Assembly: GCA_020350285.1 (NCBI GenBank)
Contig: CP070708.1
Coordinates: 2,339,157-2,403,156, forward strand
Direction: 5' to 3'
Length of the DNA: 64,000 nucleotides
DNA from: Anaerolineaceae bacterium
GTDB taxonomy: Bacteria; Chloroflexota; Anaerolineae; Anaerolineales; E44-bin32
Every line of letters starts with the position of its first letter. Positions within the stretch are counted from its first letter, which is position 1. Shown here one piece after another: positions 58,438 to 64,000 of this stretch. Under the pieces are notes generated by a model. That model saw nothing but the letters and a program-made list of their open reading frames with translations, made no database searches and was not told where the DNA came from. A program made the position numbers and the translations under genes.

Positions 58438-58656
58438 ATGTCATCTCTAGACCCGGAACAATTAGCCAACGAATTACACGACGGGGTCATTCAGGAGATA
58501 TCTGCATTGCTCCTGCAGCTAGAGACATACCAGCGTATCCTCAAGAAGGATCCCGAGGCTGCTCAAACTGAACTCGATCGTATTAAAAAACAAATCAGAA
58601 AAACCCTTCGGAATTTACGGGGGATTTTAACAACGTTGCGAAATAGTCAGGGATAG
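58438..58656 (+). CDS. Stand-alone HisKA_3 phospho-acceptor domain protein
   Basis: A 72-residue protein consisting only of the dimerisation/histidine-phosphotransfer region of NarL-class kinases. ANELHDGVIQEISALLLQLE (residues 10-29) holds the phospho-acceptor motif HDxxxQ, and the second helix (ELDRIKKQIRKTLRNLRGILTTLR) completes the two-helix hairpin. There is no ATPase domain; a stop follows at once and the next gene is a response regulator 14 bases on. It may act as a phosphotransfer or dimer partner for another kinase, or as a decoy. A strong promoter and ribosome site support it as a gene. Confidence 0.75.
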   Translation: MSSLDPEQLANELHDGVIQEISALLLQLETYQRILKKDPEAAQTELDRIKKQIRKTLRNLRGILTTLRNSQG

Positions 58657-58670
58657 ACCTGAAACCTCCA

Positions 58671-59333
58671 ATGACCGAAACGGAATACGCTCCCATTCGG
58701 ATCGTGATCGCAGAAGATCATGCGGTTGTGCGTCAGGCGTTGCGCGTCATGTTGGAGATGGAACCAGATGTTACGGTTGTTGGTGAGGCGGTGGATGGTG
58801 AGGAAGCTGCCAAGCTGACAGAAGAACATAATCCGGATCTCGTTGTCCTCGATGTCCGCATGGAAGGAATGGACGGCGTCGCAGCGACCCGAAAGATACG
58901 AGATCAAAATCCAGAAACGGCTATACTCATCCTAACTGGATTTGGTGATGAAGATATCCTCGTAAATGCCGTCGAGGCCGGTGCCCACGGCTTTCTGCTT
59001 AAGGATGCTACACACGAGGAGCTGCTGGATGCTATCCGTCGGTTAGTAAAGGGTGAGTCTCTCATCACACCTTCCTTGTTACGCCGATTATTGGATGAAT
59101 TTGTGCACCGTCATGAAGAACCTCAACCCGCCCATAATCAGTTAACACCACGGGAAACGGAGGTTCTTCAAGCTTTGGCGAGAGGGTTGAGGAACGAGGA
59201 GATCGCCAGGGAGTTGGTCATCTCCGAAAAGACCGTGAAAACCCACCTCACCAATATCTTCGGTAAGCTACAAGTTGAAGGACGCTCTCAAGCGATCATT
59301 TACGCAATCCGTCACGGTCTTGTAGATGTCTGA
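58671..59333 (+). CDS. NarL/FixJ-type response regulator
   Basis: A 220-residue DNA-binding response regulator. The receiver domain (residues ~9-125) has IAEDHAVVRQAL, phospho-acceptor Asp in VVLDVRMEGMDG, Thr in LILTGFGDED and Lys in FLLKDA. The C-terminal LuxR helix-turn-helix reads LTPRETEVLQALARGLRNEEIARELVISEKTVKTHL, covering ~155-190. It shares a promoter with the HisKA_3 protein and ends in a strong terminator. The target genes are unknown; the locus just downstream is a candidate. Confidence 0.95.
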   Translation: MTETEYAPIRIVIAEDHAVVRQALRVMLEMEPDVTVVGEAVDGEEAAKLTEEHNPDLVVLDVRMEGMDGVAATRKIRDQNPETAILILTGFGDEDILVNAVEAGAHGFLLKDATHEELLDAIRRLVKGESLITPSLLRRLLDEFVHRHEEPQPAHNQLTPRETEVLQALARGLRNEEIARELVISEKTVKTHLTNIFGKLQVEGRSQAIIYAIRHGLVDV

Positions 59334-59643: not shown

Positions 59644-59744
59644 TGGGTTTCCTTGCCCGAGTACACCAAGCATACGTGAAGCCGTTGAGGAAGGTTTTAG
59701 AGAGGAGAACATACTGGTTGTCTGAATGGGAGAAGATCCATTGA
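59640..59744 (+). CDS. Candidate 34-residue small protein coupled to the REC-GT2 gene
   Basis: Starts with ATG at 59640 inside the stop of the previous frame and ends with TGA at 59742-59744, overlapping a TTG start of the large gene (TTGA). Sequence MMGFLARVHQAYVKPLRKVL then ERRTYWLSEWEKIH: basic and amphipathic. It overlaps the purine-rich site GGGAGAAG that would serve the large gene. Real expression is uncertain. Confidence 0.38.
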   Translation: MMGFLARVHQAYVKPLRKVLERRTYWLSEWEKIH

Positions 59745-62700
59745 GCGACGCCTCAGAAACGCGTCCGAATATCGGGCAAATCAGGGTTCTGATCGTCGAC
59801 GATAATCCGTCGTTCCGGCGTGAGCTTCGAGTCTTCCTCGAATCGACCGGCAACATCAAAGTTGTCGGTGAAGCTGAGAACGGCAGTCATGGGGTTGAGC
59901 TAACCGAACACCGCAACCCAGACATCGTCTTGATGGATCAGAACATGCCTACTCTCTCAGGGGTGGAGGCGACCAAGCGTATCAAAGCGAGCAGACCTCG
60001 AATACGTGTGATATTCATCGCCGCTGAGGAGCGATGGGAGAACGATGCCATCCGAGCGGGTGCGGAGCGTTTCTTCCTCAAAGACGACGATCTGAATGAA
60101 CTGATCAAGGCGATCGAAGATCCACTTGGTAGTTTGCGACCAGTCGCTCAGCCAGAACAACGTCGCCGTTTTGGGGAAATGTGGGATAACCCCTGGTTAT
60201 GGCGAGGGATAGGTATCCTAACTGTTGTCCTCTACCTGGCCTCATTGATCTCCTCGGCCAAGATGACATTGGTTTGGACGGCGTTAGTCTTTGGTTTGTT
60301 CTTCTTCCTCTATGGCCTGAAATACTACCTCAGTGTTGCCCTTATCCTTTTTGCTACGAGTGGAAATGCGAATAACGGTCAAGCCAACGGCAAACTTAAC
60401 GGTAGGTTGAACGGTTGGTTAAACGGCTGGCGGAAGGGCGATAAGAACGGTGAGAAAAACGGCCGGGGTCTAAATGGTGTCAGGGCGTTCAATGGTGGGA
60501 ACGGTCGATTGCCAAAACACCTGCAGCCGTTCATCTGCATCCAGTTGCCACTATACAACGAGATGGAAGTTGTCGACCGCCTGCTGACAGCATGTACAAA
60601 CTTGGACTACGAGAATTACGAGATCATCGTCGCCGATGACTCAACAGATGAGACCACGCAGATCCTGCAGGAGCGTTGGGAGTCTCATCCTCGGGTTAAA
60701 CTTTCACATCGCATTGACCGAAGTGGGTTCAAAGGCGGGGCGTTACAAATTGCGGTGCAACGAATGGACCCGCGAACGGAGTTTGTAGCGGTTTTCGATG
60801 CCGACTTCGTGCCTCCTCCAGATATCCTTCATCAATTCCTGGCTTACTTTTACGGTCTCAACGGGTCAAACGGAAATCATATCAGTGAAGATGCCACCCA
60901 TGTCAGCTTGGCGGATGACAAAGTGGCTGTGGTCCAGGGCTACCAGTGGCACATGCTGAATGCATCTGAGAACTGGATCACCAGAGGTATCCGCACCGAG
61001 TATTCCGGCTCCTATGTGATCGAACGGACCGGGCAAGAGCTTTTCGGCTCGATGAAGATGATCTCAGGCTCGGTGTTCATGATCCGCGCAGACGTGGTTA
61101 AGCAGGTCGGATGGAAGACTTCGATCACTGAGGATTGGGAGCTCACGATCAGGCTGTATCTGGCGGGCTACAAGGTCCTCTATACCCCCTTCATTCAAGC
61201 GCCAGCCGAATGTGTCGCAAGTTTTAAGCAGCTCACCCGCCAACGCATGCGTTGGGCTGAGGGGCACACCTTCAATGTGAAGAAGTACTTCATGGAGGTG
61301 CTGCGTTCCACTAAGATCAACCTGCGAGAAAAACTTGAGTGGGTCTATTTTGCGCCCTACTACCTGCAGGCGGCTTTCTTTCTCGTCGGTACCGGGGCTT
61401 GGCTGATCTCGGATTTCATCCTCAAAGCGCGTATACCTTTCTGGACCAGATCACTCGGTTGGTCCTTGGTTTTTGTCAATGGGTTCTCGTTGATATTGAT
61501 GAACGTCACCGGTTTGTTCTTGGAGCGCGGGGTGCGCAGGAACTGGCGCGGATTGTTATCCTTTGTCCTTCTAACTTATCTTCTTGTCCCATACCAAGCA
61601 TATGCCGCGCTGAAAGGTTTGTTTGAGCCGCACGAGGGCGGTTGGCATCGCACGCAGAAGACCGGAGTCATCACCGAGGTTCTAGGCAGACTTGGCATGC
61701 GACGGAGGTTACGTCGCTTAAAACCTAAACCATCTCAAAAGAAAAAGGGCGGTTCACTTGCTTTCTTCAGTGGCCTCGGTCCTTACATCGAAAGCGCGAT
61801 TGAAAGTTTTAATCCGTGGCTCGAACGTTTCAAGCGCCTTTTCCCTGAGAGATTCAGGCGCCTCTTCCCTCAAAGGCTGAAGCAGCTATTCCCACGCAGA
61901 TTCAGGCTCTTTGCTGACCGATTGGGGCTTCGCTTCCGCGTGGGCTTCAGCCTGACGATCAGCCTCATCCTATTGGTCGTTCTGGCTTCTAGGATCTTGA
62001 TCGTAGCGGCAGCCCCGGATGCTTTCTACCTACACACGGGAGATCCAGGCGCGCAACCGTTGGATACCAAAGTTGGTACATTTACCGCTTTGGCGGGCAC
62101 CGGTAACCAACCCGTGACAGGTGTGGGTTTCGAGCCGAAGGCGGTGCTCTTCTGGATCACAGATCGCACCAGCGAGGGAAGTGGATCTTATGCTCGCTTT
62201 GGTCGCGGGTGGACGGACGGTAGCAACGAAGCTGCGGTCGCGACCGCGTGGGACGATGAGCCTGCTGGGGGAAGCAACTCCAACGAATCGAGAGATCGCA
62301 TCGTCAATTCCGCCAGCATCACCCTTGTGGACCACAACGGCAACCTACTCGCTGAGGCGAGCACCAGCTCCCTCGACGCTGATGGCTTCACCCTCAATTG
62401 GACCACTTCAGGGGGTTCCCGCCTTGTCACATATCTGGCCCTTGGTGGGGACGCCCTCACCAATGTGAAAGTCGGAAGTTTCGTCTGGCCCTTTGGTAGT
62501 TTGAACTACTCAGAGACCGGTGTCGGCTTCCAACCTGATGCTTTGATGTTCGCCGGGGTTGAAATGGCGACCGGTTTTGGGACCACGACCCGCGGCGGTC
62601 ATGGCTTTGGGATCGCGCTCTCCCCCTCAGACCGTCACAGCGATGCCCATCGCTGGCGGAACAATAAAACGGATGTGGATTCCGGCTCAAGCGGATTAAT

Positions 62701-64000
62701 GGGCAATCGGGCATTAGTTTTTGCCGATGACACCAACACACCTGAAAACGAACTTGATCTAGTCTCGATGGACGCCGATGGCTTCTCGCTCACCAAGGCA
62801 GTCGGTCTTGCGGATGAACAGGTGACAGTCATCTATATAGCGTTCGAGGGGATGAGTATCGATCGCGGCGTGTTGACTCAACCTCCATTTCCGATATTCC
62901 AATCGGTCTCAGGGTTAAGCTTCCAACCAAGTGCTGTGATTTTCGATGGCGGTGATAAACCGACCGCGGTCGGATTTGAACAAGATGCCGAGATGGTGGC
63001 TGGTGTAGCTACAAGCGCCAGTGAGGAGGCAGCGTTCTGGATCGGTGCTCAGAACACCTCCAATCCATATCCTTCTGATACGAGCCTCTCGACTAGTCGA
63101 TCGATCATCAGTTATACAGCTGGAGTCCCGACATCTAACGCACAAGCCGAATTCGTTTCAATGAACTCCGATGGGTTCACCATCAGTTGGACCCAGGCAG
63201 ACTCTACCCAACGCAGGGTAGGGTGGATCGCTCTCGGTTCCACCGCATCGAGCATCTCTCCTTCTGGCGAATCGATGAACACGACCCTGGGCTCTGGTGC
63301 GGCGACATCGGTCTTCGACGATATCGCAGATGAGGCCTATTGGTACACCGACCTGACTTACCCCACGGGGGATGACGACGCCAGCATCGCAGCCGGAAAT
63401 TACACGCTCAATATGTATTTCGACCAATTGCCAGATGCTTGGTGGAACACAGATTATCTCTACCGCCAGCAGATCACCGTTTCAACCGGAGCATCTGGAG
63501 TGGGGCAGGACTACTCCGTTTCTTTCACTTTCGATCATGCCTCCCTGGTGAGTGGCACCAAATCCCTCTCCAACGGAAACGACGTCCGTGTCGTGCATTG
63601 GAACGGTTCAGGTTGGACGGAACTCGACAGGGTCCTCGATCCCCTTTCTTCATGGGACGACGCTTTGACGAAGCTTTGGTTTGCGCTGGAAGACCCGATC
63701 TCAGCCTCAAGTTCAGATAACAACTACTATCTCTACTACGGCAATTCATCGGCCACAGGACCTCCAGAATCGTGGTCCACTGTCTTCATGCTCGGTGATG
63801 ATTTCGATGACGGCACGTTGACCAGCGATGTTGATATCTCATCCGCAGGTACGGCCAGTATCAGCGAGATAGCCGGTGAGGCTTTCATCGATTTGGGAAC
63901 CAATGAAGCAACCGATGCCGGGATCATCGTCACCGCGAGTGAGTTACCGCCTGATAACCAGTTTGCCATTCAACATAAGACCAAGGTCGTCAGTGGCGGC
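59741..64000 (+). CDS. Receiver-GT2 glycosyltransferase-exported beta-repeat-DUF2341 fusion (partial, 3' end outside window)
   Basis: 1420 codons without a stop up to the window edge. Domains from TTG 59741: receiver (residues ~14-127, phospho-Asp D66, Lys K114, but Ala94 where Ser/Thr is usual); two membrane helices (~150-205); an (Asn-Gly-x-x) repeat linker (209-256); GT2 domain with ADDSTD (D299/D300), DAD 353-355, TED 463-465 and QRMRW 501-505, the set of processive cellulose-synthase-like enzymes; about three helices (~535-625); a basic octapeptide repeat (695-726); a membrane helix (~736-754); three exported repeats starting ~778, 909 and 1044; and a DUF2341-like domain from ~1233 (AWWNTDYLYRQQITV). 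No PilZ domain is seen. Alternative start: ATG 59726. Predicted to make and export a surface glycan under phosphorelay control. Confidence 0.85.
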   Translation, partial: MSDASETRPNIGQIRVLIVDDNPSFRRELRVFLESTGNIKVVGEAENGSHGVELTEHRNPDIVLMDQNMPTLSGVEATKRIKASRPRIRVIFIAAEERWENDAIRAGAERFFLKDDDLNELIKAIEDPLGSLRPVAQPEQRRRFGEMWDNPWLWRGIGILTVVLYLASLISSAKMTLVWTALVFGLFFFLYGLKYYLSVALILFATSGNANNGQANGKLNGRLNGWLNGWRKGDKNGEKNGRGLNGVRAFNGGNGRLPKHLQPFICIQLPLYNEMEVVDRLLTACTNLDYENYEIIVADDSTDETTQILQERWESHPRVKLSHRIDRSGFKGGALQIAVQRMDPRTEFVAVFDADFVPPPDILHQFLAYFYGLNGSNGNHISEDATHVSLADDKVAVVQGYQWHMLNASENWITRGIRTEYSGSYVIERTGQELFGSMKMISGSVFMIRADVVKQVGWKTSITEDWELTIRLYLAGYKVLYTPFIQAPAECVASFKQLTRQRMRWAEGHTFNVKKYFMEVLRSTKINLREKLEWVYFAPYYLQAAFFLVGTGAWLISDFILKARIPFWTRSLGWSLVFVNGFSLILMNVTGLFLERGVRRNWRGLLSFVLLTYLLVPYQAYAALKGLFEPHEGGWHRTQKTGVITEVLGRLGMRRRLRRLKPKPSQKKKGGSLAFFSGLGPYIESAIESFNPWLERFKRLFPERFRRLFPQRLKQLFPRRFRLFADRLGLRFRVGFSLTISLILLVVLASRILIVAAAPDAFYLHTGDPGAQPLDTKVGTFTALAGTGNQPVTGVGFEPKAVLFWITDRTSEGSGSYARFGRGWTDGSNEAAVATAWDDEPAGGSNSNESRDRIVNSASITLVDHNGNLLAEASTSSLDADGFTLNWTTSGGSRLVTYLALGGDALTNVKVGSFVWPFGSLNYSETGVGFQPDALMFAGVEMATGFGTTTRGGHGFGIALSPSDRHSDAHRWRNNKTDVDSGSSGLMGNRALVFADDTNTPENELDLVSMDADGFSLTKAVGLADEQVTVIYIAFEGMSIDRGVLTQPPFPIFQSVSGLSFQPSAVIFDGGDKPTAVGFEQDAEMVAGVATSASEEAAFWIGAQNTSNPYPSDTSLSTSRSIISYTAGVPTSNAQAEFVSMNSDGFTISWTQADSTQRRVGWIALGSTASSISPSGESMNTTLGSGAATSVFDDIADEAYWYTDLTYPTGDDDASIAAGNYTLNMYFDQLPDAWWNTDYLYRQQITVSTGASGVGQDYSVSFTFDHASLVSGTKSLSNGNDVRVVHWNGSGWTELDRVLDPLSSWDDALTKLWFALEDPISASSSDNNYYLYYGNSSATGPPESWSTVFMLGDDFDDGTLTSDVDISSAGTASISEIAGEAFIDLGTNEATDAGIIVTASELPPDNQFAIQHKTKVVSGG

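Follow-up and report, generated by a model that had tools for sequence, protein, structure and literature searches.

One open reading frame at the 3′ end of the window (the whole stretch of 64,000 nucleotides analysed here) joins a receiver (REC) domain, a membrane family 2 glycosyltransferase (GT2) and predicted exported beta-rich modules, and we suggest, with a probability of roughly 0.6, that this gene encodes a polyprotein of a synthase and surface proteins that signal peptidase would cut between the units. In its fuller form, to which we give somewhat better than even chances, the reading is of a bacterial polyprotein made up of a polysaccharide synthase and one to at least six surface proteins, cut by signal peptidase I and coupled to an exosortase, which would amount to a virus-like expression strategy for the extracellular matrix. 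We base this on a single and conserved frame, on a recurrent pattern of membrane hairpins and candidate cleavage sites, on an exosortase gene linked to the chain in relatives and on the occurrence there of the units as separate genes; from these we infer the topology, the cutting and the anchoring of the products, and a part shared between them in producing and retaining an exopolysaccharide coat.

The frame opens with an ATG and meets no stop before the window ends (Table 1). In the host assembly (G000) it can be followed for at least 3,494 residues (L008:2883-13364), up to the point where a 100-N spacer halts the assembly before a stop codon is reached; about 40% of the known chain length falls within the window, and the tandem hairpins all lie farther 3′. 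Pfam recognizes the receiver (Response_reg) and the GT2 within the window, and DUF2341 and Laminin_G_3 at significant scores beyond it. The original prediction, that REC, membrane GT2 and exported beta-rich modules share one frame and that this order should be sought in other Chloroflexota, is borne out: the fusion is conserved across the phylum, in genomes of the same genus and in more distant ones.

The one-contig record of the host genome was built from contigs with 100-N spacers between them. Adjacent spacers lie at even distances (about 2.75 kb apart near 570 kb and 3.35 kb near 489 kb; L009, L010, L077, L102), so the contigs seem to be size-sorted and their order to carry no information. 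Beyond the contig join 3′ of the chain, a 1,048-aa gene on the minus strand (L008:14696-17842), read by eye, is an apparent serine hydroxymethyltransferase-like/GcvT-like fusion, and in the 1.5 kb upstream gap a search for RNA elements returned a tRNA-Glu only.

Table 1. Features of the chain gene and its upstream neighbours (nucleotide positions of the window; aa, residues of the chain)
Feature	Position	Strand	Basis
72-aa HisKA_3-only ORF, without ATPase domain, conserved neighbour	58438..58656	+	HisKA_3 E 2e-17
NarL/LuxR-type response regulator, conserved upstream neighbour	58671..59333	+	
Chain gene (REC, GT2, surface units), first 1,425 aa	59726..64000	+	frame open at the window end, at least 3,494 aa in the assembly
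Receiver domain, aa 18-133	59777..60124	+	PF00072 E 1.7e-23; residue table; well-predicted REC fold
N-terminal membrane helices between REC and GT2, aa ~156-214	60191..60367	+	hydropathy, model
Asn-Gly-rich linker preceding GT2, aa ~210-262	60353..60511	+	alignment A2; NG repeats variable in all members
GT2 catalytic domain, aa 265-560	60518..61405	+	PF13641/PF13632/PF00535; D, DxD, TED, QxxRW
Synthase C-terminal membrane helices, aa ~547-633, predicted	61364..61624	+	model, hydropathy
Highly basic linker, aa 636-744, predicted to be cytoplasmic	61631..61957	+	positive-inside rule, inference from sequence
First helix of signal-peptide type, with site VAA|APD	61958..62023	+	cut predicted behind aa 762 (base 62011)
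Three homologous beta-rich repeats, aa 784-918, 919-1052, 1053-1187	62075..63286	+	repeat comparison; no Pfam family above cut-off
DUF2341-like domain, first exported unit	63575..63823	+	21.9 bits, cut-off 23.4

Within the synthase part, the GT2 (PF13641, aa 275-512, E 5.6e-19) carries its motif residues as VADD, FDAD, TED and QRMRW, and the D, DxD, TED and QxxRW set is invariant across the family alignment (A4). The best Foldseek matches for the synthase were BcsA and viral hyaluronan synthase; the window GT2 missed the PgaC equivalog cut-off (84 bits against 422). A structural model of the REC-GT2 part (mean pLDDT 59) is good for REC only. In the tree the GT2 domains of the family group in one clade, clearly separated from the stand-alone GT2 proteins of the order. 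The window protein is like BcsA, PgaC/IcaA and NfrB in its motifs and in having a membrane-embedded GT2, and unlike them in lacking PilZ and in possessing its own N-terminal REC, Asn-Gly-rich inserts and a C-terminal chain of surface units; to our knowledge, REC and surface units are absent from NfrB. Asn-Gly repeats (NGNGNG) of variable length occur in most members, both in the linker before the GT2 and inside it near aa 380. In one relative (L105:3312-6671) the cytoplasmic linker behind the GT2 contains three repeats resembling the C-terminal domain of RNA polymerase alpha.

The REC domain (PF00072, aa 21-131) retains the acidic pair, the acceptor Asp and the Lys, whereas the Thr/Ser switch residue is an Ala, so that the window protein has only part of the residue set of a phospho-switch (acidic pair, Asp, Thr/Ser, Lys). 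The Thr/Ser residue has been lost in most relatives too, while the acceptor Asp is usually retained; it is a Glu in G006:C54, the site is lost in G008, and one gene with a GT2 and several units (G006:C58) has no REC. Phosphorylation of the REC Asp switching the synthase, as in response regulator enzymes, had been the expected mode of control. The acceptor residue is indeed there, and five genomes conserve, upstream, the gene of a NarL-type regulator together with the 72-aa HisKA_3-only ORF, which possibly encodes a small phosphotransfer protein (the ORF is 66–98% identical in G002, G003, G004 and G006); considering, however, the widespread loss of Thr/Ser and the members deprived of the Asp or of the whole domain, we treat such a switch as a tentative reading, and it is no less likely that REC serves for docking or for sensing a partner. 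The related idea that REC takes the place of c-di-GMP control is weakened by the soil relatives, in which REC occurs together with an MshEN domain, placed between REC and GT2. MshEN is a type of c-di-GMP receptor (PMC5013675) through which the E. coli GT2 NfrB is controlled (PMC8669469); the soil relatives may likewise receive a c-di-GMP input at their GT2, which speaks further against REC phosphorylation as the switch, whereas the window protein has no MshEN. The copy without REC (L072:5646-12905) has an in-frame TAG between the GT2 and the first signal helix; its first unit seems to have been deleted, the signal helix being joined directly to the anchor.

Behind the synthase, the three repeats of about 130 residues are homologous, as had been proposed from their shared motifs (pairwise identity 26–33%, z = 7–8 against shuffles), with G(V/L)xFxPxAxxF at aa 799, 932 and 1063 and DGF(T/S) at aa 886, 1018 and 1149. 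The block is missing at the same place in G003, and its AlphaFold model (pLDDT 26.7) was discarded. The DUF2341-like domain also proposed for the window stays under the cut-off there, but later copies exceed it, one of them clearly (PF10102, 47.4 bits, in unit 4 of the same chain). A significant match to Laminin_G_3, a ConA-like lectin domain, lies 3′ of the window end, and the exported units of relatives include fn3 domains.

Past the first unit the chain repeats a fixed order, in which a beta, DUF2341 or lectin-like module is followed by a transmembrane (TM) anchor, a basic loop of the RKRK type, a second helix with a signal-peptidase-like site (consensus VSA|APD, e.g. PVSA|APD) and then the next module. 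Under a signal peptidase I rule ([AVSTGI]xA, not before Pro, 4–12 residues past the helix core), a site is present at the second helix in all 27 internal hairpins examined in the family and at the anchor in 2 of the 27, against 30% of all positions, a background that makes the rule permissive; the 27 copies are, moreover, related and hence not independent tests. A better argument than the count is that the putative site is retained where its flanks have changed, as in VSA|EVS, VEA|YVD, VEA|APN, SSA|APD and VGA|APT. The first signal-peptide-like helix and its site also recur in G002, G003, G004, G001 and G007. The hairpin loops have an average charge of about +4 and both flanks are negative, which fits a loop inside and modules outside; for the first signal helix, the predicted orientation is read from the basic linker and not from a helix count behind the GT2. 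Comparison of codons between G000 and G002 gave a dN/dS of 0.03–0.14 over the full length of the chain, and two of the three hairpins, 1 and 2, match the GT2 core in constraint. Each of the eight genomes tested has a signal peptidase I. Longer chains exist: the frame in G002 has at least 4,570 residues and five internal hairpins, and that in G007 has 4,275 residues and five hairpins, with one more in the next frame, 7 Ns apart.

We propose that the synthase would be inserted co-translationally into the membrane at the N-terminus of the chain and that each carbohydrate-binding-like beta module would be exported. Between units, the anchor helix would cross from outside to inside, a short Arg/Lys-rich turn would lie in the cytoplasm, and the signal-peptide-like helix would lead back out, with signal peptidase I predicted to cut after this second helix at (A/V/S/T)xA, mostly before (A/S)PD; the first signal helix would stay as the last membrane span of the synthase. 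A single translation event could thereby supply the synthase together with several anchored surface proteins, all in a fixed ratio, and the PEP-CTERM-like tail of the last unit, perhaps together with internal tails that keep VPE, may be processed by exosortase. The earlier notion of enzyme and surface module as one protein is correct for the gene and its frame, but, considering that a signal-peptide-like helix and site precede every module, separate mature proteins are more likely.

If the chain were left uncut, it would be a giant multi-spanning protein whose surface modules hold the emerging polysaccharide where it is synthesized. The single frame and the conserved hairpins suit this possibility, and an anchor with its second helix could form a plain membrane hairpin; yet a plain hairpin needs no (A/V/S/T)xA site, whereas all second helices have one and the anchors nearly none. 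Moreover, the second unit in soil relatives (L111, L114, L115) is a separate ORF that overlaps the end of the first, which indicates that covalent linkage is not essential, and we regard an uncut protein as unlikely. The same overlapping genes lend something to the opposite idea, that the units are translated separately from internal starts and that the long frame is an overlapping operon only, as do the start codons that fall by chance near many junctions. Considering that a Shine-Dalgarno-like match, even of four bases, occurs at a single one of the 27 junctions, that three junction loops have no start codon at all and that the loops are open and constrained, we argue against internal starts, which appear very improbable.

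The suspicion that an assembly error had joined separate genes is prompted by the construction of the host record from contigs with 100-N spacers and by the tendency of such repeats to break assemblies. The window and the 10.5 kb frame are, however, free of N, and a mis-join of the REC-GT2-exported fusion is refuted by its presence in several other assemblies, with the REC-GT2 part 91% (G002), 89% (G003) and 71% (G004, split over two contigs) identical to the window protein. As the chain is also under strong purifying selection, we give an artefact hardly any weight and return to the signal-peptidase-cut polyprotein.

The complete ends of the chain in relatives consist of a Pro-Glu motif, a membrane helix and a basic cluster, and are thus PEP-CTERM-like: a complete one-unit form of 901 residues (G006:C87) ends in VVPEY-TM-RMKRRKR, a three-unit form (G001) in TVPEN...KRKK, the G007 chain in TVPEP...LRRRR (a VTVPEP tail) and those of soil MAGs in IVPEG...WWKRRRP. 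Since no NCBIfam tail model reached its cut-off on the anchor tails, this reading draws on the motif, its position and the linked exosortase. In the window gene the Glu of VPE is often missing from the internal anchors (IPG, IVD, VLD), which makes handling by exosortase doubtful at those places, and we do not claim that it acts internally. Anchoring by sortase was considered and rejected: sortases are present, but the tails inspected have no LPXTG-like motif.

An exosortase scores above the TIGR04178 cut-off in G000, G001 and G006 (PF09721 missed it in the genus, and none of the named exosortase subtype models reached cut-off); the translations show WNC, R and HDYG motifs, plausibly the Cys/Arg/His catalytic residues. 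Its gene lies directly 3′ of chain-type genes in G001, G006 and L116, and in G000 it adjoins a tail fragment. Close homologues of the chain-linked exosortase were found in 4 of 61 relatives (G000, G001, G006 and G022), all of which carry the REC-GT2 family or its N-terminal part. In G022 the exosortase gene is 3′ of a REC-TM fragment without GT2, which has been lost through deletion or a collapsed assembly. Searches of G002, G003, G004, G007 and G008, which are incomplete genomes, returned no exosortase.

The PEP-CTERM/exosortase (EpsH) system (Haft et al., 2006; PMC1569441) is like the chain in its signal peptide, exported module, Pro-Glu motif, membrane helix and basic tail, as well as in the nearby exosortase and the tie to exopolysaccharide genes. 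In that system, however, the tail is C-terminal, with one gene per protein, and TM regions between signal peptide and tail are absent except in one small family (PMC1569441). The tail-like anchors of the chain are instead internal, tandem and fused to a synthase, and the chain family has 27 internal anchor-plus-signal hairpins where a PEP-CTERM protein has a single terminal signal. Because the tail and exosortase features are present while the terminal-only feature is not, the system is a variant of PEP-CTERM/exopolysaccharide systems and not a plain member. As a rule, Chloroflexota are considered to be without a typical outer membrane. An outer membrane was noted for all PEP-CTERM bacteria (PMC1569441).

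Judged by the sequence rule only, the frame also has what defines a polyprotein processed by signal peptidase, namely an internal signal peptide and site within one frame. In the Bradyrhizobium cytochrome b/c1 protein FbcH, an internal signal sequence is cut by signal peptidase to give two membrane-anchored respiratory subunits, and the flavivirus structural polyprotein is cut by host signal peptidase at internal signal sequences. The chain is predicted to resemble both in placing an internal signal sequence between two membrane-anchored products, and we know of neither joining a polysaccharide synthase to tandem surface proteins. A literature search on PEP-CTERM and bacterial polyproteins, FbcH and DUF2341 glycosyltransferases, with most subscription literature outside its scope, returned no direct precedent.

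Relatives recovered from the scan of species genomes have GT2 domains at 56–96% identity; in those that reach the N-terminus the GT2 is nearly always preceded by REC, as it is followed by exported sequence in those that reach the C-terminus. Within the family of the window the units are joined in frame, and the multi-unit forms group together in a single subclade (SH-aLRT 95). Strong matches to the hairpin profile are confined to seven genomes of one family among 400 genomes of the order, and to the window's own genome in a phylum sample of 400. A search for plasmid spread with one internal segment gave no match. A gene for a ParA/MinD-like ATPase (VNRKGGxGKTTTTFNLAGAL) recurs near the chain gene, downstream of it in L098, L109, L113 and L072.

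Finally, if the chain is cut as we propose, bacteria too would make several surface proteins together with an enzyme, in a fixed ratio, by means of long polyproteins processed by signal peptidase. Exopolysaccharide synthesis and PEP-CTERM proteins, previously linked mainly by co-occurrence and gene neighbourhood, would be tied together in one translation product, and the series of forms, from one unit through overlapping genes to multi-unit fusions, offers a way to test how such a polyprotein evolved.
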